38,421 nucleotides of DNA, taken from assembly GCA_018823795.1 (NCBI GenBank), contig JAHJGZ010000168.1, forward strand, positions 1-38,421, written 5' to 3'. This document shows positions 18,475 through 31,413 of the stretch, piece after piece. The position numbers were made by a program, and so were the translations under genes. Each line of letters begins with the position of its first letter. The stretch's first letter is position 1. Source of the stretch: Candidatus Omnitrophota bacterium (GTDB lineage: Bacteria > Omnitrophota > Omnitrophia > JAHJGZ01). The notes under the pieces are model-generated. The model made no database searches and had not been told where the DNA came from. It saw only the letters and a program-made list of their open reading frames with translations.

Positions 18475-19807
18475 CTAACGAAAATTCTTTAACAAAACGA
18501 TCTAAGTCCTCTTTTGTTTTGGTCTCTGTCGCACACACAAGTAATTCATTTTTTAATTTTGGATAAAACCTCTGAAGAGAAAGGCCTGCATATATTCCCT
18601 TTTTAAGTAATGCAGCTATTATCTTTTCCACGTCTTTATTGATTCTTATAACAAATTCATTAAAGATCGGCCCGGTAAAGGTAATTTCACACTCCAAGAC
18701 TGACGTGAATGCTTCCCGGAGGTAATTCGCATTTTGAATATTTAAATCAGCGACCTGCCGTAATCCCTCTTTTCCTAACGTAGTTAAATAGACTCCTGCG
18801 GCTAAAGCACACAAGGCTTGGTTCGAACAGATGTTTGAGGTGGCCCGCTCTCTCCTAATATGTTGTTCACGCGTTTGTAACGTAAGGGTAAACATCCTCC
18901 GGCCTTCGCTGTCATGGCTCAACCCAACCAGACGGCCAGGAATCTTTCGCATGAGTTCTTTTTTGACGGCAAAATAGCCAAGATAAGGACCGCCAAATGA
19001 AAGTGGGTTGCCAAAAACCTGTGCCTCACCACAGGCAATATCAGCATTCCATTCACCGGGAGATTTAAATCGCGCGAGCGAGAGTGGATTTGCAACGATA
19101 ATAAAATGGGCGCCACACGCATGAATGAGTTTTTCTATCTCAGAAAAGTTTTCTACAATACCAAAAAAATTAGGTGATTGAACAATGCAACAGGCAACAT
19201 CTTCATGAAGTGCTGTCTTAAAACGACTGCTATCGAGCATACCCTCACTCGTAAAAGGAATCTCTATACATTCACCCGCCGTACCGCGCAGATATGTCTT
19301 TAAAACCTGGCGATATTCAGGATGCACACTGGATGCAACGATAACCTTTTTTCTTTTTTTGACAGACATACTTACAAGAGCTGCTTCTGCCATACTCGTA
19401 GCACCATCATAATGTGATGCATTAGAGACATCCATGCCGGTAAGAGTACACATCATACTTTGATATTCATACATAGCCTGCAGCGTTCCTTGGCTTGCCT
19501 CCGCTTGATACGGTGTATAGGCAGTATAAAATTCACTCCGAGACGTAACGTGATGAACAACCGATGGTATGAAATGTTCATAGGCACCTGCACCAATAAA
19601 TGAAAGAACGGTATCGGTCGATTTATTTTGATGTGCTAACGAGCGTACCATCGTGCGCAATTCAAGTTCGCTTAATGGGTGAGGAAGTTTTATAACTGGA
19701 TTGCGCAACTGTCGTGGGATAGCTGCACACAATTCTTCAAAATCAGTTACGCCAATTTCTTGAAGCATTACTTTTCTATCGTGATCGGTGAGTGAGGCGT
19801 AGCTCAT
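18461..19807 (-). CDS. gcvPA: Glycine dehydrogenase (decarboxylating) subunit 1
   Basis: FIGAGAYEHFIPSVVHHVTSRSEFYTAYTPYQAEASQGTLQAMYEYQSMMCTLTGMDVSNASHYDGATS. Confidence 0.96.
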   Translation of the reverse strand: MSYASLTDHDRKVMLQEIGVTDFEELCAAIPRQLRNPVIKLPHPLSELELRTMVRSLAHQNKSTDTVLSFIGAGAYEHFIPSVVHHVTSRSEFYTAYTPYQAEASQGTLQAMYEYQSMMCTLTGMDVSNASHYDGATSMAEAALVSMSVKKRKKVIVASSVHPEYRQVLKTYLRGTAGECIEIPFTSEGMLDSSRFKTALHEDVACCIVQSPNFFGIVENFSEIEKLIHACGAHFIIVANPLSLARFKSPGEWNADIACGEAQVFGNPLSFGGPYLGYFAVKKELMRKIPGRLVGLSHDSEGRRMFTLTLQTREQHIRRERATSNICSNQALCALAAGVYLTTLGKEGLRQVADLNIQNANYLREAFTSVLECEITFTGPIFNEFVIRINKDVEKIIAALLKKGIYAGLSLQRFYPKLKNELLVCATETKTKEDLDRFVKEFSLAVSS

Positions 19808-20190
19808 TGTTCTCCTTCAATATGCTTTCCATACGCTGCAGCATCCATCAACGAATTCAATTCATTTTCATTTGAACATTCGAGTTTAAAGAGCCACCCC
19901 TTGCCATACGGATCACTATTAATAAGGGCCGGATTATTCTCTAAATCAGTATTCACTTCGAGAACTCGCCCTGAAAGTGGCGCAAAAATATCAAAAGCTG
20001 CTTTAACTGATTCAACAACACATACAGCTTCGCCAGCCTTTATATCCCGGCTAATATCGGGAAGTTCAACATAGACAACATCTGAAAGTTCTTTCTGTGC
20101 ATATTCAGTTACTCCGACAATACAAACTTTTTCTTCCTTTTTTGTCCATTCATGTGTCTTCGTGTACTTACAATTGTTTGGAAATTTCAT
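19804..20190 (-). CDS. gcvH: Glycine cleavage system H protein
   Basis: CKYTKTHEWTKKE...VGVTEYAQKELSDVVYVELPDI..VVESVKAAFDIFAPLSGRVLEVN; start trimmed to MKFPNNCKY. Confidence 0.96.
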   Translation of the reverse strand: MKFPNNCKYTKTHEWTKKEEKVCIVGVTEYAQKELSDVVYVELPDISRDIKAGEAVCVVESVKAAFDIFAPLSGRVLEVNTDLENNPALINSDPYGKGWLFKLECSNENELNSLMDAAAYGKHIEGEQ

Positions 20191-20261
20191 GGAATGTCCT
20201 TTCTTTAGAACGCACATTATCGCGAATCAAATGCATATTGTCACAGTAATGCTCGATGTTT

Positions 20262-20333
20262 GATACTTGAATACTCGGTATTTATTTTAAGAATACCCTT
20301 CGAAACGTACCGTTCTTGCTAGAATCAAGTATC
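20262..20333. repeat. 9-bp perfect inverted repeat in the spacer between gcvH and the cassette
   Basis: GATACTTGA (20262-20270) / TCAAGTATC (20325-20333). Confidence 0.5.
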
Positions 20334-20498
20334 CGGCATTTAAAACTTTGTACATTCATTTGTTATAAAACTGTAAGTTAATTTAGTAACATACGTTACG
20401 TATTGAAAATATGGGCGATTAAACAGAAATGAATTTATTTCCTGTAACCGGAAATAATGTAAGTTGGTATTATATCAACTAATAGAGAAAATGCAATA

Positions 20499-22250
20499 TT
20501 AAATGAATGGTGGAATTGAATTAATGATTTGATGAGCAAACAATTTAGAAAATTCGCTTTCTCTATTCAATAAATCCTTACTATTACATGTAATTATTTC
20601 GTGGGAATTGATAAAACAATAAACGAGTTCTGCGCACATTACGGTGGATAACCTATGTGATATTGTAATAAAAGTAATTTTATCCTGAAATTGTTTAATA
20701 TTTGACACTATTTTGTCTTCACTTGATGCATCTAATGAAGACATGGCTTCATCTAATATCAGTATCGTCGGCCTTTTAATCAATGCACGTGCAATAGCAA
20801 TCCTTTGTTTTTGGCCATCAGAAAGCATACACCCATTTTCCCCAATAATAGTATTATATCGATTACTAAAGTTATTAATAATTTCCTCTATGCCCACTAT
20901 CTGGGAAACACGTATTATTTCATCCATTGTTGCATCTTCTTTTCCATATACTATATTATTTGCAATACTGTCATTCCAAAGAAAAGGCTCTTGACATGCA
21001 ACGCCAATTTGACTTTTCAGTACAGACAGAGACATATTGTTAATATCATATCCATCAATTAGAATTTTGCCACTCCACGGTTCATAAAGACGCATCAATA
21101 AATTTACAAAAGTAGTCTTACCACAACCAGAGGGACCAACGAGAGCAATATGCTTCGATGCTTCTATACAAAAGTTTATATTTTTAAAAATATGTCCCTC
21201 ACGCTTATATCCAAAATTCACCTCCTGAAACAATATTGATCCTTGCCGAATTGAAATTTTCTCCTTATCCGTAACCGTAACTATCTGCAACTGCTCACCC
21301 ATAATCTCCTCTATCACCTGACACGATGTAATTCCACGAATAATTACTTGAAAAGACTCGGAAATCTTTGTTTGAAACACCATGAGCTGCCCAAAATAAA
21401 TTATTATTGCTGAAAAGGTTCCTAAACTCATTCTTCCTGTTATAACCTGATAAATACCAAAAACCACAATGAATCCTGCTACAGCCTTGCCTGCTAAGAC
21501 AGAAGTAACGCTACGCAGAGATTCCAATCGTAAATGTCTTATACTCAAGCGGGTATTAGTAAGTACCTTTTTAAAATAGGTACGTATAGTCACCGATTCT
21601 TTACCAAATAATTTGATCAGATAAATATGCGAAAAAAGCTCCTCTAAATTCACAAAGATACTTTGACTACTATCATTCAAAACTTTCCATGAACGCTGCA
21701 CTATTGAACTAAAATAACAATATGGTACATATATAAAAGGGATGAGGACAATCGCTATACATGCCATTTTAAAATCAAGAAAATACATAATGATCAAAGT
21801 CAATAATAACCGTATAAAAAGAAAGAGTAATTGTGGCGGGATTTCAGTAATAAATTGAGTGACCCTTTTTATATCATAACTTAAATTATAGAGATGCTGC
21901 CCCGCAGATTTCTTCTGAAACCATTGATACGAATATCCTTGAATATTTTTAAACACTTTTTTTTGCAGATCTAAAGTTATTTTTTGGTTTACATAATGCT
22001 CTAAATATTCTCTGAATAAATCAATTAAACTCGATAAGAAAACAATGGCTCCCAGAGCTAATGCGAGAAAAGTAAAAATACGTACATCATGCTTCTCTAT
22101 TGCCTCGTCAACGACTAACCTGCATAAATAAGGGCTTATTAAGCCTAAAATACTTCCCATGCCACTTAGTATAAATATGATTAACCACTTCTTACGGTAC
22201 GGATAAAGGAATTTAAAAAATAAAAAATAAAGTTTGAATTTTGACATCAC
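20499..22250 (-). CDS. ABC transporter, fused permease-ATPase (no peptidase domain)
   Basis: N-terminal TMD; Walker A GPSGCGKTT, signature LSDGQKQRIAIARAL, Walker B TILILDEAMSSLDA. Confidence 0.93.
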   Translation of the reverse strand: MMSKFKLYFLFFKFLYPYRKKWLIIFILSGMGSILGLISPYLCRLVVDEAIEKHDVRIFTFLALALGAIVFLSSLIDLFREYLEHYVNQKITLDLQKKVFKNIQGYSYQWFQKKSAGQHLYNLSYDIKRVTQFITEIPPQLLFLFIRLLLTLIIMYFLDFKMACIAIVLIPFIYVPYCYFSSIVQRSWKVLNDSSQSIFVNLEELFSHIYLIKLFGKESVTIRTYFKKVLTNTRLSIRHLRLESLRSVTSVLAGKAVAGFIVVFGIYQVITGRMSLGTFSAIIIYFGQLMVFQTKISESFQVIIRGITSCQVIEEIMGEQLQIVTVTDKEKISIRQGSILFQEVNFGYKREGHIFKNINFCIEASKHIALVGPSGCGKTTFVNLLMRLYEPWSGKILIDGYDINNMSLSVLKSQIGVACQEPFLWNDSIANNIVYGKEDATMDEIIRVSQIVGIEEIINNFSNRYNTIIGENGCMLSDGQKQRIAIARALIKRPTILILDEAMSSLDASSEDKIVSNIKQFQDKITFITISHRLSTVMCAELVYCFINSHEIITCNSKDLLNRESEFSKLFAHQIINSIPPFI

Positions 22251-22382
22251 TGTCTCACTTTCCCTTTCACGTATTTTGAAGTATAAAAATATACAATACC
22301 GGTTAACAAAGTAATAGTCTATTGTAGAAAATGGATGGACGAATTTGGATAAACCCTATTGAAATAAAAACTTGCGGCTTGT

Positions 22383-23219
22383 TCATTCTTTATGTAATGC
22401 AACCGAAAATATATCTTCTGGAACTTCCTCAAAACGCATTGTATCAATAATGACATTCCCTATCAATTTGTTATTTTCATACATCGTTATACGAAACGGG
22501 ATCAAAAAAGGCCCTATTCTTTTTTCATTTAAATAATATTCTGTTCTTTTTCGCTCGTTCTCAAGACCAATGTTAGCTGTATTCTCTATTGAAACTATTC
22601 GAAAAGAATTTATTTCAATATAATATATATCACTTTCTTTTTCGCCTAATAAAGACTCAAGGATATGACAGTTTCTGCCCCTTACTTTCTTTTCACCTCT
22701 ATACTTCAAAGAGTTCCGGTCTCTTATTAGATATGACAACGTTAGAGAAATGCCATTGAACGGCTCATATCTGAGCTCCTCCTGAATACTCTCTCTTAAA
22801 TTTTGAACCTTATCATTATCAGTGATGAGATCACCATTCTCCGAATAATATACTTGTCCGGAATTATAAATGGTCGTAACGCGTCGTTCATTTGATAAAT
22901 AATCCCCACGAATTTTATCGGGGTACTTAAAGTAACGTTCAATCCGTCTCCAAGCTCCATTGGCCCGGCTCATATGGGACAACAGTACATACCCTCGCAT
23001 CTTAGAAGCCGAATCATTCATCCCATATTCGTCTATTGCCTTACTGAGTATATATTCAGCAATATCACTTTTTTTAGTTTGAATGCTTAAAAAAAGAAAT
23101 GCACCATACGCCACCATTAATACAATAATAATAATACTACACGCATATACTAGAGAATCGATAAAAATAGGATTACTTATCTTAAATTTACTCAATATTT
23201 TTTTTACATTATTATACAC
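22383..23219 (-). CDS. Membrane-anchored LolA-like (outer-membrane lipoprotein-sorting-like) protein
   Basis: N-terminal TM; RRIERYFKYPDKIRGDYLSNERRVTTIYNSGQVYYSENGD...KVRGRNCHILE...YYIEINSFRIVSIE. GTG start. Confidence 0.5.
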   Translation of the reverse strand: MYNNVKKILSKFKISNPIFIDSLVYACSIIIIVLMVAYGAFLFLSIQTKKSDIAEYILSKAIDEYGMNDSASKMRGYVLLSHMSRANGAWRRIERYFKYPDKIRGDYLSNERRVTTIYNSGQVYYSENGDLITDNDKVQNLRESIQEELRYEPFNGISLTLSYLIRDRNSLKYRGEKKVRGRNCHILESLLGEKESDIYYIEINSFRIVSIENTANIGLENERKRTEYYLNEKRIGPFLIPFRITMYENNKLIGNVIIDTMRFEEVPEDIFSVALHKE

Positions 23220-23302
23220 CGCAATATACCTCTGTTATCCTTCTTGATCTTTTTTGCTATCGCAACACCAGAACCATATCGTATATACATAGTAGAGCTA
23301 TT

Positions 23303-23440
23303 TTAATTACGGGAACTCGGTCCCGAATAGGTACAACATGCAAGAACCGTTTCCTTAGGATTGAGTTTTATCCGCGTAATTTTTGGCTTAAACTTATGTT
23401 TTTGTAATTTACTATCGTGTGATTTTTTTCTTTTACTCAT
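23303..23440 (-). CDS. Candidate RiPP precursor peptide (45 aa), below the ORF-track cutoff
   Basis: Translated by hand: MSKRKKSHDSKLQKHKFKPKITRIKLNPKETVLACCTYSGPSSRN*. RBS-like AAAGAGAA upstream of ATG; lies between the HprK-like and LolA-like genes, same strand as the cassette; charged leader and short CC/Ser/Thr/Tyr-rich C-terminus. Confidence 0.7.
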   Translation of the reverse strand: MSKRKKSHDSKLQKHKFKPKITRIKLNPKETVLACCTYSGPSSRN

Positions 23441-23516
23441 TGCGCGTATTCTCTTTGTACTGTCTTCATCATATCGTTATCATTCTAAGTTAATTTCCAA
23501 CTTCCTTTTAAAGATA

Positions 23517-24431
23517 TCATAGTACATTTTTAATAAAATTTACAACCCTTTTATTATTAACAAACCCCAATCGATAACATGGTATTACCCTAATCAACTC
23601 ATGACAAAATAGTACACTATTTTTTACACTCGTCTTATGCCAGTAAATGGAAAAAAGCACGGGATACAGCAAGGTAAGTGCTTCCCTTGCAATAACTTGT
23701 TGTATTATATTTTTTGATGCGTGCTGTATAAAAAACATTTTTGCTATGTGCGTTGCTTTATGCGATACAAAACACCGGTTCCTAATATTTTTTCCCTGCC
23801 ACGGACTCCCATACATAAAATATTTTTTTTTACTTTTCCTGATAATTATTTGGTCATCATTTATGATTCGAGTTTTGCAATGCCTATTCCATATCCCGGC
23901 TATAGTGCTTTTCCCAGAACCAGATTTACCTGCAAAAAGAAGCCCTACATCTTCTGACACGCCTACGCCAGACGAATGAATACAAATCCCCTGTTTTCGA
24001 ATCGCTAGGTAGTGTATTAAAATAACTCGCAAAAAGTTACATATACTATATAAGCTATCCACTATGTATCTTTTGCTACTTTTTGATAACAGAAATACTT
24101 CGATTTTATCAAACTTTTTATTTGATTGTATTACCTGAACAGCATTGCAGCCATCAAGGAAAATTTTATACACATATTTTTTATTTTGTTTATACAGAAC
24201 CCATCCATTGTTAGCATTAAATAATTGCATTACATTATCAAACGGAGGAAGAGCATTCACGTGTTGTATGGTAATAGAAACACTATGCTTTTCTCTCCCT
24301 TTATATATAAAATCGTTGAATGGTTTACGGTAAAAGGGGTTTTCTTCTTTTCTAATCCTTAGTAATGGATCCTGGCTTTTAATTTCAATAATAACTTTTG
24401 CGATTTCTAGTTTTATCTTAAATTTTCTCAT
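23517..24431 (-). CDS. HPr kinase-related (HprK-like) P-loop kinase
   Basis: GICIHSSGVGVSEDVGLLFAGKSGSGKSTIAGIWNRHCKTRIINDDQIIIRKSKKKYFMYGSPWQGK. Confidence 0.85.
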   Translation of the reverse strand: MRKFKIKLEIAKVIIEIKSQDPLLRIRKEENPFYRKPFNDFIYKGREKHSVSITIQHVNALPPFDNVMQLFNANNGWVLYKQNKKYVYKIFLDGCNAVQVIQSNKKFDKIEVFLLSKSSKRYIVDSLYSICNFLRVILIHYLAIRKQGICIHSSGVGVSEDVGLLFAGKSGSGKSTIAGIWNRHCKTRIINDDQIIIRKSKKKYFMYGSPWQGKNIRNRCFVSHKATHIAKMFFIQHASKNIIQQVIAREALTLLYPVLFSIYWHKTSVKNSVLFCHELIRVIPCYRLGFVNNKRVVNFIKNVL

Positions 24432-24453
24432 GTGTATTTTCTTTAAATACGTG

Positions 24454-25512
24454 TTAATTCGTGCACCTTCTCTGAACCGGTTTTTTTATCTTTTGTCTCA
24501 CTTGTGCTAGTTTGCGACAGGTACGGCTACATGTTGAAAAATTTCTATGTTCAAGCCACGATAGTGCAGGGCACCACGAACAATACATTCGCAACGGACA
24601 CGTATCACATTGATAACGCTCGTCAGGCTTTATGCTCATCGCAAATTTTTTTAACTTTTCATAAGCATTTTCAAACGAACTATTCAATATCGAATACTGT
24701 GGTTCATTCACATTAATACAAATCTTCAATTTACCTTGTGGTGTTATTGCTACACTGTGGCGGCCTCCTCCACAATTAAAAAATTTATGTCTATCAAATG
24801 TATACCAATTATATTGACTCCCTCCCCCCCCCCTTTCGTCATCTAATCGTAGTAAATGATTTATATGCCGCGCTTTATAATAATAGGGCTTTTTTGTTCC
24901 ATCAAGACACGGTAAAACGTTAAAATCTAAACTGTGCGGTAGATAAAGTGACCCAGCAAAATCTTCAATAGATTGCAACTCCTTTTTATTAGCTTGAAGA
25001 ACACATGTTTTAACCCCAACATTCAACCTCTTCTCCCGCAAATTTTTAACGACAGCAAATACTTGATCACGCAATCCTGTAGTACCCGTAATAGTATCAA
25101 AAGTTGTACTATTCATTGCTGGTAGAGTAATGTCTATTCTATGTGGCTGTACTAGTACTAACTCGCGTATCATATTTGAATCAATCAGAGAACCATTCGT
25201 ATTAATAATGACCATAAAGCCGCATTTTTTTGCATAATATAAAATATCAACAAAATCGTTTCTCATGAATGGGTCACCACCCGTAAACCCTATATATAAA
25301 CAACCGATATCTCTTAAACTCTTCAATACAACACATACTTCATCCGTGGTGAGTTCTTTTCTTCTTTTCCTAAAATTCGACGGAAGATAGCAATGACCAC
25401 AATTAAAATTACAGCGATAGGTTAATTCAAATACTGCTCGCAGGGGAAATTTTTTTATTGTAGCTTTATCATTCATGCGTTTCCAAAATTTTTCATATGA
25501 CTGAATTTTCAT
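24454..25512 (-). CDS. Radical SAM/SPASM peptide-modifying protein (rSAM-1)
   Basis: ELTYRCNFNCGHCYLP (CxxxCxxC), GFTGGDPFMRNDF, SPASM-type CDTCPLRMYCSWCPALSWLEHRNFSTCSRTC; contains a G10 tract. Confidence 0.92.
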   Translation of the reverse strand: MKIQSYEKFWKRMNDKATIKKFPLRAVFELTYRCNFNCGHCYLPSNFRKRRKELTTDEVCVVLKSLRDIGCLYIGFTGGDPFMRNDFVDILYYAKKCGFMVIINTNGSLIDSNMIRELVLVQPHRIDITLPAMNSTTFDTITGTTGLRDQVFAVVKNLREKRLNVGVKTCVLQANKKELQSIEDFAGSLYLPHSLDFNVLPCLDGTKKPYYYKARHINHLLRLDDERGGGGSQYNWYTFDRHKFFNCGGGRHSVAITPQGKLKICINVNEPQYSILNSSFENAYEKLKKFAMSIKPDERYQCDTCPLRMYCSWCPALSWLEHRNFSTCSRTCRKLAQVRQKIKKPVQRRCTN

Positions 25513-25517
25513 CAGAC

Positions 25518-26558
25518 TTACACAACCTTCTCTTGATACTGTTTTTTTATTTTTGCTAACTCACAATAATAAGAAACGGGCGTATCAATAGTACCGGTTT
25601 CAAGATAGGCAACTCCAGGACAAAAGGAACAGAATTCTCCTAGGGCACAACTTTTGCATTTTAATCTGCTCGTTAAGAACATTTTTCGGATTGTGTTCAA
25701 TAGTCTGCTACGCGCATATTGAATATTCACGTCTAAAATATTAAATGAAGGTTTTCGTATTGCTGAACAGAAAAAGGTATTTCCATAAGGATCAAGATGC
25801 ATGCAATCGCTTCCTTCTTGATAACAAAGCCCGGATATCCGTTTCATAACTGATTCGTCACTGTCTGCTATTATCTTTCCCCGTGATACCTGCACTATGT
25901 CATCTGGAGTAATTCTTAAATCACATGGTGATGTATCATTATTTAAACGCGCAGTTACACAACTATAGGGATGAAACTCAAATCCTCTTTTTTCGATAAA
26001 CTTTTTAATACTCGAAATCTCATGTATGTTGTTTCTAATAACATGTGTTTTAATCTTAAGCGGCAATCCTGCTTCTAATATGAGGTCTATTCCTGCCATA
26101 ACTTTACCAAACGACATCCGCACTTGTGATATTTTCTCATATAACATATCGGTCACTGCATTAAGGGTAATTTCGACTCTCAGGGGAGGCTGCCGTGATA
26201 AATAGTCAGCAATTTTTTCCGTCATTGAATATGCATTTGTAAATAATGTTATAATAAAGCCTTTTGCTTTAGCATATGAGTAAATTTCTAAAAAATCGGG
26301 TCGCATCAACGGATCTCCGCCTGTTAAATATAAATGCGCGACTCCCATTTCAGAAACTTTATCAAGAATCGATTTAACCTGTTGCGTATTTAACTCTTTC
26401 GCTTCATTGGAAGGGATATTATAACAATCTGTATAACAATACATACAATGTAAATTGCATCTATACGTTAATTCAAATACGCATTCACTCGGTTTTTGCC
26501 TCAATCGGCGTTTTCTGCGTATTTTCATTCCAAAAGCTTCGTATGAAATCTCTTTCAT
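25518..26558 (-). CDS. Radical SAM/SPASM peptide-modifying protein (rSAM-2)
   Basis: ELTYRCNLHCMYCYTDC (CxxxCxxC), YLTGGDPLMRPDF, SPASM-type CKSCALGEFCSFCPGVAYLETG...YYC. Confidence 0.93.
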   Translation of the reverse strand: MKEISYEAFGMKIRRKRRLRQKPSECVFELTYRCNLHCMYCYTDCYNIPSNEAKELNTQQVKSILDKVSEMGVAHLYLTGGDPLMRPDFLEIYSYAKAKGFIITLFTNAYSMTEKIADYLSRQPPLRVEITLNAVTDMLYEKISQVRMSFGKVMAGIDLILEAGLPLKIKTHVIRNNIHEISSIKKFIEKRGFEFHPYSCVTARLNNDTSPCDLRITPDDIVQVSRGKIIADSDESVMKRISGLCYQEGSDCMHLDPYGNTFFCSAIRKPSFNILDVNIQYARSRLLNTIRKMFLTSRLKCKSCALGEFCSFCPGVAYLETGTIDTPVSYYCELAKIKKQYQEKVV

Positions 26559-26587
26559 GTATCACACATTTTTCCCGAGCACATGTG

Positions 26588-26887
26588 CTAATCTATAATA
26601 ATTGCTTTAATCTTCTCTAAATCCCCCAGTAACACCCGTATTTCACTTTCTACTTCTTGTGGGGTAGCATCAAATTGCCCTATTATCATACTTTTAATTT
26701 CACCGAGTGTTTTTCGACCATCAATCATTTTCCACACCCACGCTGCAGCTTTATTTAAGCTATAGATATAGTTCATTTCTTCCGCTGTCTTAAAAATAGG
26801 TATCAAGATAGTTTCATCTTCAATTTCTCGCGTTACTACATTTTTATTTTTATGTATACTTGTTGATTTTTTCATTGGCACACACAC
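26588..26887 (-). CDS. PqqD-like peptide chaperone / RiPP recognition element
   Basis: ILIPIFKTAEEMNYIYSLNKAAAWVWKMIDGRKTLGEIKSMIIGQFDATPQEVESEIRVLLGDLEK; strong RBS GAAGGAGGTG. Confidence 0.88.
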   Translation of the reverse strand: MCVPMKKSTSIHKNKNVVTREIEDETILIPIFKTAEEMNYIYSLNKAAAWVWKMIDGRKTLGEIKSMIIGQFDATPQEVESEIRVLLGDLEKIKAIIID

Positions 26888-26905
26888 CTCCTTCTATTTT
26901 TTCCT

Positions 26906-26995
26906 TTACACCCCGAATACATAAATACCATTAGATTTCTGTTTTAAACCATTTGTGTGAAACGGTATAGTCCTTATTAGTTCTATTAAATTCAT
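26906..26995 (-). CDS. Possible 29-aa translationally coupled peptide
   Basis: MNLIELIRTIPFHTNGLKQKSNGIYVFGV*; its ATG overlaps the TGA stop of the upstream gene (ATGA). No independent support. Confidence 0.2.
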   Translation of the reverse strand: MNLIELIRTIPFHTNGLKQKSNGIYVFGV

Positions 26996-28653
26996 GTGCT
27001 TTTTTTTAATCTTATTGATTTACATTTATATGTTATGCCCTGAATTACTCGTATCGCAAGACTATGCAAAGGACTAATTTTTATAATGAGCCGATTCAGA
27101 TAATAGCGTCCAATGCCTGTATAATTAATCAGTTTTCCGTTCTTTATTACGGCTATTACTTTTCCTACAAACATTTCCTCGGCTATAAATTTTCCTACGA
27201 GCGGAAAAGAATTGTCTCCGCACACGTAAAGGTTAAATCTCCCATCCTGTCTAACTTTTTTCTTCAGACGGTGGCATACGACCCGATTATGCTCTTTATA
27301 TAAAACAATATCTCCTATTCGTAATTTTTGTACCGCAACTTTTTTACATAACACTTTCTCGTTTCCTTTTAAGAATGGCCACATACTAAAGCCTGTCGTT
27401 TTATAAAACAAGATTTCATTGTTCGTGTGATCGGATAGCGTGTACGGCAAAAAAAATGTCTTAAACGAGTCGGCTTTAAATTTAATATTATTGCTTAAAA
27501 AAATGACCATCCTAAATAAAACATAGAGTAAACGGCAATGGTACAATAATGTTGTTTTTGTATCATACGGAGTGAAATTGTAAAATTTGGCAAATTGTTC
27601 TTCGGGAAGATTGATAATGTACCGTATTGGTTCCCACAGAGAATCATAAAGCAGGAAATGACTTTTTAGGTATAATTCTTTACATCTTTTCTGCATATCA
27701 CAACAAAAAGTGTTATTCTCAATAAAACGATCGATGAGTTTTTTCTTATATGAAGGCACTAACAAATTATCATAAACTGTCGAAGGAATTTCAATGATTT
27801 TCATATTTTTTACTTGTGACAGAAGAAAATATACTGTTGCCTTCATCTTTCCAGCATGCGATTCTTTTATCACATAATCCCAATTAAAATGTGTGTATTT
27901 TTTTAACAGGAGGATTACATCACACACATACTTTAAAGAAAGAGCGTTTCCAAATCGGCGATTATGTAATGCTAAGCTTAGAAGCGTGTCTTCTGGCGAC
28001 AATACTGTTAATCGTCTATCACCTATATTTATTTTTCTAATTCGCTTCCAAAGATTTGGTAAAAGATTACGATTATGCCTTCTAAAATCAAGCCCCCAGT
28101 GAAGTTCTATACATACATCGTTATAGTTACTATTTTTATAAAAGGCAAAGTGGCATTGTTTTTTTCTCCAATACCCCTCTTTTAAACCATATAATTCTTT
28201 CGTATACCCTAAATCATTCATTACTCTTACCGCACTATCCAAATCTGTTTCTTGGCATAAGAGATCGATATCAATCATTGTGCGTATAGGATATTTTGCA
28301 TATACATCATGGAGAAGCGATATTCCTTTAAGCGGGACAAGAGGCATTTGAACCCGTTCAAATGCCGATACAATGGTCATACATTCAACCCACAAATATT
28401 CACAATGAGCAATCGTGCGGTAATATTCATCTTGTAAGAACTGAGAAAAATCAAAAGGTAATGATATACATGTATCCCTGAAGAGCAGATAAGCAAACGT
28501 TACTAATTCATGATACACAAGAAGGGCTTTCAATGTATTCCAATCAATAGAGTCGTGATGAGAAAAAGGTGTTAGCGCTTCTACGTTTGATGTTCCATAT
28601 GCTAGATTAGTAATAACGTTTGCGATGAAAAGCTTCTTTTTATCTATTGTCAT
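26992..28653 (-). CDS. NTP_transf_5-type nucleotidyltransferase fused to an S26 signal-peptidase-like domain
   Basis: N-terminal VPLKGISLLHDVYAKYPIRTMIDIDLLCQETDLDSAVRVMNDLGY; C-terminal TTGFSMWPFLKGNEKVLCKK...LRIGDIVLYKEHNRVVCHRLKK...LYVCGDNSFPLVGKF. Confidence 0.85.
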   Translation of the reverse strand: MTIDKKKLFIANVITNLAYGTSNVEALTPFSHHDSIDWNTLKALLVYHELVTFAYLLFRDTCISLPFDFSQFLQDEYYRTIAHCEYLWVECMTIVSAFERVQMPLVPLKGISLLHDVYAKYPIRTMIDIDLLCQETDLDSAVRVMNDLGYTKELYGLKEGYWRKKQCHFAFYKNSNYNDVCIELHWGLDFRRHNRNLLPNLWKRIRKINIGDRRLTVLSPEDTLLSLALHNRRFGNALSLKYVCDVILLLKKYTHFNWDYVIKESHAGKMKATVYFLLSQVKNMKIIEIPSTVYDNLLVPSYKKKLIDRFIENNTFCCDMQKRCKELYLKSHFLLYDSLWEPIRYIINLPEEQFAKFYNFTPYDTKTTLLYHCRLLYVLFRMVIFLSNNIKFKADSFKTFFLPYTLSDHTNNEILFYKTTGFSMWPFLKGNEKVLCKKVAVQKLRIGDIVLYKEHNRVVCHRLKKKVRQDGRFNLYVCGDNSFPLVGKFIAEEMFVGKVIAVIKNGKLINYTGIGRYYLNRLIIKISPLHSLAIRVIQGITYKCKSIRLKKST

Positions 28654-30158
28654 GTCGTCTCTTGTCTTTCATACCGAAACAGCCACACACCGTCAAATTC
28701 ACGATAGAATGTTAAGTTATATTGTTTAGCTAAAAATATTTTTACCGACCAACAATTATTATCCATTAATCCATTTCTCTCATAATTTGACGAAATAACC
28801 CATAATCGTTCAAATGAAAGGCTGTTAATCTTCGCAATAGGAACAACTAAGTCATTTTCTTGAAAAGGCCTTTGTGAATGAGTATATACATATTGAGGAT
28901 TAAAAAAATAGTAGTAAGGGATTTCTTTCCCTTTCATATAATAAAGAACCGAAGGCATTGCTGAATCGTTTGTAAAAGCCAAAATGTCGGTTGGCTGCAT
29001 TCTTTCATTTAAATACGAAACTAATGGTCTTATTGGTCTTTTGATGTACGTACCATAACGATGCTCTAAAGGTTGGCATATTATATCGTTAAAGTATCTA
29101 TATATTCCTATTATTAAAAGGGAAATTAAAATAATAATACTGATTATTTTTTGTGTTCTCTTAAAATAATCAATCCCCACGGCAATAAGAAGATAGAAGT
29201 ACGGGCTAAAGATAAGAAAACATCGATCTAAATGAATTGAAGAAACAATACGAGAAAAAAAATACGTAAAAAATAGAGGGATAAATGCTATGACCGCACA
29301 CACGGAAAAATTTTCCCGCACTTCCCTGTCCTGATAAAACCTAACCAGAGAAGTACCAAGTACGAATACTATTATCAAATCAATAATACGATAGAGAAGC
29401 AATGAACCATTATATCCGAGGATAAAGTTTTCCAGTGTAACAAACAAGGAATTCCACCGGGGCGTTGGAATCCAGAAACCATTGCTTATAAAATAAAGTT
29501 TATTCAAGAATTTTGGTAAATAAAAACAAAATCCGAGCAGCACAAGTAAAAAAGCTGTTAGTTCTCTAAAATTAAGCCGAAATCGCTTTTTTACCAGAAT
29601 AATTATTCCATACCCCATTAACAAAAGAATAAAAAAATAATTTGTATATAACCCTATAAGTGAAATTAATATAAACGATATCCAGACAAGAAAACTTTTT
29701 CGCTTTAATAACATCAGAAAAATATACGTCGCTCCCACTCCTAAAAAAAGTGTTATGCTATAATTTCGTGCCTCTTGCGCATACCAAAGATGAAACGGTG
29801 AAAGTCCCATAATAAGGCACGCAATCATCCCCACTCTTTTATTAAAAAGTATTGTCCCGAGATGAAGTGTAAGCAGTATTGAAAAAAGATTAAATAAGAC
29901 AGAAGGAAAACGAAGGCTTAATTCAGAAATGCCAAATACTTTAATCCAAAAATGAAGCAGTACATAATAAACAGGAGGGCACCATGTATTCCAAGGATTT
30001 TCAGCATACTCGATAGTACTAATTTCATCAAACCAAAAATCGTGAGTTGTTATACTATACAAACGAATGAAAAAGAAAATACAAAAAAAAATGAAAATTT
30101 TTATTTTATTTTTATTATGCACGCATACGTGCTTATCATTCGTAAGATATTTAATCAT
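28650..30158 (-). CDS. GT39/ArnT-like polytopic membrane glycosyltransferase
   Basis: SITTHDFWFDEISTIEYA...PPVYYVLLHFWIKVFGISELSLRFPSVLFNL...GLSPFHLWYAQEARNYSITLFLG; many TMs. Confidence 0.85.
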   Translation of the reverse strand: MIKYLTNDKHVCVHNKNKIKIFIFFCIFFFIRLYSITTHDFWFDEISTIEYAENPWNTWCPPVYYVLLHFWIKVFGISELSLRFPSVLFNLFSILLTLHLGTILFNKRVGMIACLIMGLSPFHLWYAQEARNYSITLFLGVGATYIFLMLLKRKSFLVWISFILISLIGLYTNYFFILLLMGYGIIILVKKRFRLNFRELTAFLLVLLGFCFYLPKFLNKLYFISNGFWIPTPRWNSLFVTLENFILGYNGSLLLYRIIDLIIVFVLGTSLVRFYQDREVRENFSVCAVIAFIPLFFTYFFSRIVSSIHLDRCFLIFSPYFYLLIAVGIDYFKRTQKIISIIILISLLIIGIYRYFNDIICQPLEHRYGTYIKRPIRPLVSYLNERMQPTDILAFTNDSAMPSVLYYMKGKEIPYYYFFNPQYVYTHSQRPFQENDLVVPIAKINSLSFERLWVISSNYERNGLMDNNCWSVKIFLAKQYNLTFYREFDGVWLFRYERQETT

Positions 30159-30193
30159 TATATATATATCTATTTTTTTCTAAACATATATAC

Positions 30194-30235
30194 ACAAAAA
30201 AACTCTCGTTGTCACTAGTAGCTTGTTAGAGTTTT
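30194..30235 (-). terminator. Putative rho-independent terminator downstream of gcvT
   Basis: Minus strand: AAAACTCT-21 nt-AGAGTTTTTTT; stem 30228-30235/30199-30206, T-run to 30194. Confidence 0.45.
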
Positions 30236-30291
30236 GTTTCTCAAGAATAAGTCAGTTTTGGCTCACAGGGTAAAGATGATGCATCTCCATT

Positions 30292-31413
30292 TTATAATGC
30301 TGGTCCACATTTCCGTCGTTTATAAAACGGCTTCTTTACAATTAGTGCCTTTAAAAGTTTTTTTCTGACTGCAATAAAGATTTCTTCTCCTTGGTGAGCA
30401 AAGGAAGAATCCACATAGCCAAAACCCATATTTTTATTCATCGTCGGGCACAAGCTACCGCTCGTCACTTCCCCAATTTTAATATTGTTCTTTAAAATCG
30501 GGTACTCGTGGCGAGCAACACCACGATCGATAAGTTCAAATGCTATCAGCTGTTTCCCGATGCCCTCTTTTTTTTGTCTTACTAATGCTGCCTTACCAAT
30601 AAAATCATCCTTCTCTAACTTTACGGTCCATCCAAGCCCTGCTTCAAGTGGTGTTGTTGTATCATTCATATCATTGCCATACAAAAGACATCCGGCTTCA
30701 AGCCGCAATGTATCCCGCGCGCCAAAACCAATGGGCTGAAGTCCGAATGATCGTCCGGCATCGAAAAGTCTGTTCCAAAGGGTAACGGCTTTTTCCCTCA
30801 TGCATATAATTTCACACCCTATCTCCCCCGTATATCCTGTTGTAGCAATAATAACATCAGAATTATCAATACTCACTGTAATAAAGCTATGGTATGGCAT
30901 ACGTAAAAGATCGATATCCCATGCTGCCTTCATAATATCAGGACTGAGCGGCCCTTGGAGCGCAAATAATGCCTTAGTGCCAGAGACATTCTTCAGTTCG
31001 ACTGAAAATCGCTGACAACGACTGGCAAACCAACTAAAATCTTTTTCATGATTTACTGCGTTTACAATTAAAAAAAACTTTGTTTCGGAAATTTTATATA
31101 TAAAAATATCATCGATAATTCCGCCCGCCTCATTACAGAGAGGGGTATACAATGCTCCCCCTTCGTGCAAGGTGTTCATATCATTCGAAATGAGATATTG
31201 GAGATAACTCGCAGCATCAGAACCTTCTACCTCTATGACCCCCATGTGTGAAATATCAAAAATCCCGGCCTTGTTTCGTACCACGTTATGCTCATCAATA
31301 ATACTGGTAAAATATGCCGGCACTTCCCACGACGCAAAAGGGATAAACGTTGCCCCTTTTTTTACGAACACATCATGTAATGGTAAATGATTCATAGTAC
31401 ACGTATTAGCCAT
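30292..31413 (-). CDS. gcvT: Glycine cleavage system aminomethyltransferase
   Basis: PLHDVFVKKGATFIPFASWEVPAYF...FDISHMGVIEVEG...GYTGEIGCEI...DTLRLEAGCLLYGNDMNDTTTPLEAGLGWTVKL. Confidence 0.96.
   Translation of the reverse strand: MANTCTMNHLPLHDVFVKKGATFIPFASWEVPAYFTSIIDEHNVVRNKAGIFDISHMGVIEVEGSDAASYLQYLISNDMNTLHEGGALYTPLCNEAGGIIDDIFIYKISETKFFLIVNAVNHEKDFSWFASRCQRFSVELKNVSGTKALFALQGPLSPDIMKAAWDIDLLRMPYHSFITVSIDNSDVIIATTGYTGEIGCEIICMREKAVTLWNRLFDAGRSFGLQPIGFGARDTLRLEAGCLLYGNDMNDTTTPLEAGLGWTVKLEKDDFIGKAALVRQKKEGIGKQLIAFELIDRGVARHEYPILKNNIKIGEVTSGSLCPTMNKNMGFGYVDSSFAHQGEEIFIAVRKKLLKALIVKKPFYKRRKCGPAL

Follow-up and report, generated by a model that had tools for sequence, protein, structure and literature searches.

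Several described systems share parts with the locus analyzed here. Prochlorosins have a conserved leader, many hypervariable cores per genome and few enzymes, with lanthipeptide chemistry. PQQ and mycofactocin pathways are laid out as PqqD plus SPASM enzymes, and the canonical SPASM motif closes on a Cx3C step. Among lasso peptides, dedicated kinases phosphorylate the C-terminal Ser (PMC8498205, PMC9266682), a reaction for which a His-Lys-Asp-Asp set was shown by mutation to be necessary (PMC9266682). In pseudomycoidin, a nucleotidyltransferase gene then adds a hexose to the C-terminal phosphate (PMC8498205, PMC9266682). We examined a window (the whole stretch of 38,421 nt analyzed here) from a Candidatus Omnitrophota genome, in which a short open reading frame (ORF) at 23303–23440 very probably encodes a RiPP precursor that is bound by PqqD, modified by two radical SAM/SPASM enzymes, processed, and exported.

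A short reading frame within a cassette between gcvT and gcvH

The ORF lies on the minus strand, where direct reading places its start ATG at 23440 and the end of its stop codon at 23303. Its full 45-aa translation is MSKRKKSHDSKLQKHKFKPKITRIKLNPKETVLACCTYSGPSSRN, in letter-for-letter agreement with the hand translation offered by the first-pass annotation. The Shine-Dalgarno-like site proposed there was likewise read directly, as AAAGAGAA (23449–23456, minus strand), 8 nt 5′ of the ATG. The leader spans approximately residues 1–33 and carries the motif HKFKPKITRIKLNPKETVL; the core, ACCTYSGPSSRN, is short (12 aa), with two Cys and a C-terminal Asn (..SSRN). ORF length cut-offs had caused the gene to be overlooked.

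As had been claimed, the ORF sits inside a biosynthetic cassette (20499–30158, minus strand), flanked by an HprK-like gene (23517–24431) and a 278-aa ORF (22383–23219). Read 5′ to 3′ on the minus strand, the cassette starts with a PMT_2-type glycosyltransferase (28650–30158; PF13231), followed by an NTP_transf_5 nucleotidyltransferase fused to a signal-peptidase-like S24/S26 domain (26992–28653; PF14907, 131.8 bits; sigpep_I_arch, 2.8e-8), which is a candidate glycosyl/nucleotidyl tailoring enzyme combined with a leader peptidase. Next come a PqqD-family RiPP recognition element (26588–26887; PF05402, 43.9 bits), radical SAM/SPASM proteins A (25518–26558) and B (24454–25512; PF04055 in both), the HprK-like kinase (HprK_rel_B, 1.4e-5), the peptide, the 278-aa protein, and an ABC exporter with membrane and ATPase domains (20499–22250; PF00664/PF00005). 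The 278-aa protein is probably membrane-anchored and could be assigned to no family: it has few homologs, was not found in the other cassettes, matched nothing in Pfam or NCBIfam, and gave an unusable single-sequence fold (pLDDT 43). Distant homologs of it stand in tandem in genome G174 (L159/L160), adjoining another radical SAM-like gene.

In all 19 relatives of the class examined, gcvT lies directly upstream of gcvH. Here gcvT (30292–31413) and gcvH (19804–20217) are split apart by the cassette, which falls within the interval 20218–30291 and has a GC content of 33%–35% in most bins versus 37%–43% in the flanks. Its most plausible reading is an acquired insertion into the glycine-cleavage operon. 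Transposition-type direct repeats were absent within either cassette end region, each taken alone.

A precursor family with conserved leaders and variable cores

We searched with the full peptide against its own genome and 57 relatives. A single strong homolog emerged, and its genome is the sole other member of the order in the sample. This homolog (MAKKPKFKPEITRVKLNPEQAVLAC.. / MAKKPKFKPEITRVKLNPEQAVLACTC..) is immediately flanked by PqqD on one side and a radical SAM gene on the other. Querying with the leader gave matches in 33 of 386 genomes sampled across the phylum (E ≤ 0.05, best 1e-6 to 1e-9), so the ORF is not a chance one; homologs occur at the same genomic position. A profile search of the fetched contexts yielded 82 ORFs, and a scan of species genomes added loci labeled as Ca. 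Omnitrophota, Elusimicrobia, NPL-UPA2, Psychracetigena, WOR-3, Saganbacteria and Caldisericota, with single loci elsewhere. The pooled set holds 130 non-redundant precursors, 128 of them complete. Their leader consensus is KPKFxPxITRVKLNPEQAVLxC(x)C, with near-invariant positions P (89%), L (97%), N (86%), P (90%), E (93%), Q (97%), A (96%), V (93%), L (98%) and C (97%).

We compared nonsynonymous with synonymous change across the family and obtained pN/pS of 0.33 for leaders and 0.88 for cores. The window peptide against all members behaved alike (leader: pS 0.84, pN 0.30, pN/pS 0.35; core: pS 0.79, pN 0.73, pN/pS 0.92); all of these values are ordinal measures, because pS approaches saturation and the core comparison allowed no gaps. 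The substitution pattern indicates that leaders are under purifying selection and that cores are hypervariable. On this comparative evidence, the 45-aa ORF is confirmed as a real gene encoding a RiPP precursor.

The first-pass annotation had read the peptide as leader plus core and had named beforehand three outcomes that would count against it: no homologous small ORFs at related loci, no coding constraint, and no predicted interaction between leader and PqqD. All three checks favored it. Small ORFs with a conserved leader and variable C-terminus were found beside PqqD/radical SAM genes in many genomes, constraint was present on the leader and absent on the core, and a leader–PqqD interaction was predicted (see below). 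The annotation had also proposed thioether or aryl crosslinks as putative bonds in the core; the spread of the family across phyla and the kinase module associated with it emerged only in the present analysis.

Copy number differs greatly between genomes. In the 1.4-Mb genome STF1_137 (G209), the DNA pattern for LNPEQAVL had 52 matches with at most one mismatch, and a reversed control pattern had 0; one HprK-like gene was detected alongside at least 52 precursor motifs. Its peptides form tandem groups, which in the fetched stretches are separate from the enzymes (L051, L078–L081, L130–L154). A permissive initial look at genome G256 gave 81 candidates; of the 22 that were scored, 14 matched at E ≤ 0.05. 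Three of its loci (L075–L077) hold a dispersed subtype with the leader YYSPNIKRVNLNPDQAVL and no enzymes nearby in the stretches fetched. Two loci from different families (L055 in G060 and L056 in G174) carry identical peptides in the same arrangement, reflecting either recent transfer or cross-binning of contigs. A plasmid search with the peptide returned chance-level matches only (E = 3 or above).

Neither Pfam nor NCBIfam has a model for the peptide family. Our literature search, with most subscription papers outside its reach, yielded no paper with the motif NPEQAVL or with the combination of PqqD, HPr kinase, radical SAM and precursor, and a search on SynChlorMet/GeoRSP found nothing relevant. 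Papers on the Cariaco Basin report expressed Omnitrophota biosynthetic clusters, and no such precursor is described in the relevant passages. The family is apparently uncatalogued and widespread in uncultured Omnitrophota and related phyla.

Radical SAM and kinase modules

Protein A has the radical SAM motif CxxxCxxC (C34, C38, C41), a Gx4C element (G259–C264), and the auxiliary cysteines C301x2C304x5C310x2C313 and C332, all conserved. Protein B has a comparable layout, with C34, C38 and C41, then C247, G260–C265, C302, C305, C311, C314 and C328. Conservation of the cysteines was seen across 21 and 40 homologs. These auxiliary cysteines are of SPASM type with a final step of Cx2C, not Cx3C; the Pfam search reported no SPASM match for the cassette radical SAM proteins. 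The locus presents the features expected of a radical SAM/SPASM RiPP: a short precursor, with conserved leader and variable core, beside the candidate maturases, CxxxCxxC plus auxiliary cysteines, and a PqqD element.

The HprK-like kinase contains a P-loop and His152, Lys174, Asp192 and Asp193, kept at 85% or more in 32 homologs and matching the HKDD motif of lasso kinases. Among the complete precursors, 109 of 128 end in Ser and nine in Thr (118 together); for long ORFs from these loci, the share with a terminal Ser is 8.7%. We infer from these sequence features that a C-terminal-Ser kinase module belongs to the precursor family. The rule fails for the window peptide because its core ends in Asn; it (SSRN) and the peptide of locus L072 (STRN) are exceptions, and of the remaining eight, several seem to be truncated. 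Two more weak HprK-like matches occur elsewhere in the window's genome (G000:C137:23539–27754).

Most enzyme-bearing contexts of the family contain PqqD, radical SAM A′, radical SAM B, HprK and radical SAM A, often with an ABC exporter, a nucleotidyltransferase and an S24 peptidase. L072 (= L128, Ca. Omnitrophota Modern_marine.mb.214) resembles the window most closely and shares its gene order: glycosyltransferase (a homolog of the window's, again at the head of the cassette), nucleotidyltransferase-peptidase, PqqD, radical SAM A, radical SAM B, HprK, peptide, and ABC. Both have two radical SAM genes, versus three in most cassettes. The L072 peptide equals the window's in length, and its core, SCCYPAAPSTRN, matches that of the window (CCYPAAPSTRN vs. 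CCTYSGPSSRN). L072 also has, between PqqD and radical SAM A, a 322-aa ORF (L072:3806–4774) that the window lacks and that, read by eye, looks like a SAM-dependent (arginine-type) methyltransferase. The L072 peptide, from the cassette with this methyltransferase-like ORF, ends in Arg-Asn.

Predicted recognition of the leader by PqqD

Natural fusions connect the two partners directly. In genome G265, a complete PqqD domain and a precursor share one open frame at three sites (L053, L084, L086), and a fourth site (L087) has just the tail of PqqD joined in frame to the precursor; a PqqD–precursor fusion also occurs in G195 (L071). We predicted the fold of a relative's natural fusion (L111:9536–10087) from an alignment of 45 sequences, some of them PqqD-only and some leader-only. 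PqqD was modeled confidently, the linker was not (pLDDT 54–60), and the leader block reached pLDDT 94, with a strand at 164–168 (ITRVK) and a short helix at 171–174 (PEQA).

The best PDB matches of this model in Foldseek were 5v1v and 5v1u, the lasso element TbiB1 with the TbiA leader (TM normalized by target up to 0.82, probability 1.00, best E 3e-3). The family PqqD profile also ranked solved TbiB1 first, so that a lasso B1-like leader-binding element is indicated by both profile and fold. Because of the predicted strand, its confidence, and the TbiB1 complexes it matched, the leader is predicted to dock on PqqD.

Alternative explanations

At just 45 aa, the ORF is of a size at which the window contains many spurious ORFs. 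We nevertheless give almost no weight to a chance ORF, against which stand homologs at E 1e-7 and beyond, a common neighborhood, and purifying selection on the leader. The ORF might also encode a translated but unmodified regulatory small protein that merely adjoins the enzymes, as its small size and Lys/Arg-rich N terminus would allow. We consider this very improbable, as the leader motif goes with PqqD/radical SAM cassettes across several phyla, two genomes have it fused to PqqD, and the core behind it is free of constraint.

The most serious alternative is that the window peptide gives rise to a conserved small redox cofactor or signal of the PQQ or mycofactocin kind, made from one copy with a fixed short core that is excised after modification. 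The window's genome has a single clear precursor copy, the combination of PqqD with SPASM enzymes fits that layout, and the window and L072, which belong to different families within the phylum, have CC, P, S, R and N in common in their cores. Against it, the cassette holds an ABC exporter, a signal-peptidase-like domain and a kinase; cores are hypervariable in most relatives, several of which have many copies; and the short core is known from two examples only. In the class of G165, the sole short-core relative ending in RN was in G165 itself. We judge such a cofactor unlikely, and prefer the reading of the peptide as precursor of a modified and exported RiPP.

Proposed pathway and implications

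For this RiPP precursor, PqqD would bind the leader, with the ITRIK segment predicted to join its beta-sheet as a strand in the manner of lasso B1. Gene content suggests that the two radical SAM/SPASM enzymes would then modify the short Cys-Cys core, that the signal-peptidase-like S24/S26 domain would cleave off the leader, and that the ABC transporter would export the product. Across the wider family, the most likely role of the HprK-like kinase is to phosphorylate the C-terminal Ser; the nucleotidyltransferase would then decorate the resulting phosphate, as in paeninodin and pseudomycoidin. For the window peptide (SSRN), this kinase and decoration step is uncertain and would need trimming or a different acceptor.

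A broader proposal, which we regard as evenly balanced between right and wrong, is that the family represents a RiPP class spread over several uncultured phyla. It would join radical SAM/SPASM modification of the core to lasso-type phosphorylation or phosphoglycosylation of a C-terminal Ser, rely on a leader-binding element of lasso type, at times fused to the precursor, and in some genomes serve dozens of precursors with one enzyme set. If so, the motifs of STF1_137 would amount to a natural combinatorial library. Genomes that pair a single leader with dozens of cores would be natural libraries in which to study how much substrate variation such enzymes tolerate. If kinase and nucleotidyltransferase work as they do in lasso clusters, a C-terminal phospho-decoration module would be common to unrelated RiPP chemistries. 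The precursor also offers a testable substrate for orphan radical SAM enzymes of poorly cultured or wholly uncultured phyla, and the motif KPxITRVKLNPEQAVLxC offers a handle for finding precursors that ordinary annotation tends to miss.

Comparison with known systems

SynChlorMet clusters resemble the window in their PqqD-related ScmD, HprK-like ScmC, and two radical SAM/SPASM proteins (ScmE and ScmF). We rejected this identity, as all four NCBIfam models scored far below their curated cut-offs (ScmD, 37.5 of 100; ScmC, 20 of 125; ScmF, 63.5 and 80.1 of 400; ScmE, 59 and 67.7 of 400). Geopeptide/GeoRSP systems (TIGR04229, TIGR04302, TIGR04303) likewise pair PqqD with radical SAM/SPASM partners, and the geopeptide model TIGR04229 was the nearest to the peptide. 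Its match covered 11 residues (29–39) at 13.4 bits, below the curated cut-off of 30, and this identity too was rejected; the same model had no matches among 16 other family members scanned.

With prochlorosins the family shares a conserved leader, many hypervariable cores per genome, and few enzymes, but its leader is different and its enzymes are of the radical SAM/SPASM type. Lasso peptide identity was rejected: the asparagine-synthetase-like cyclase (C) and transglutaminase-like protease (B2) were absent from the Pfam matches of all cassette proteins and ten flanking proteins. The phosphorylated or glycosylated lasso peptides paeninodin and pseudomycoidin nonetheless have much in common with the family, namely a PqqD-like B1 element, an HKDD HprK-like kinase, a nucleotidyltransferase, an ABC exporter and, in most precursors, a C-terminal Ser, which the window peptide lacks. 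The nucleotidyltransferase is fused to the B2 protease in some lasso clusters and to a signal-peptidase-like domain in the window. Unlike lasso clusters, the window cassette uses radical SAM/SPASM enzymes, and the cores are Cys-rich.
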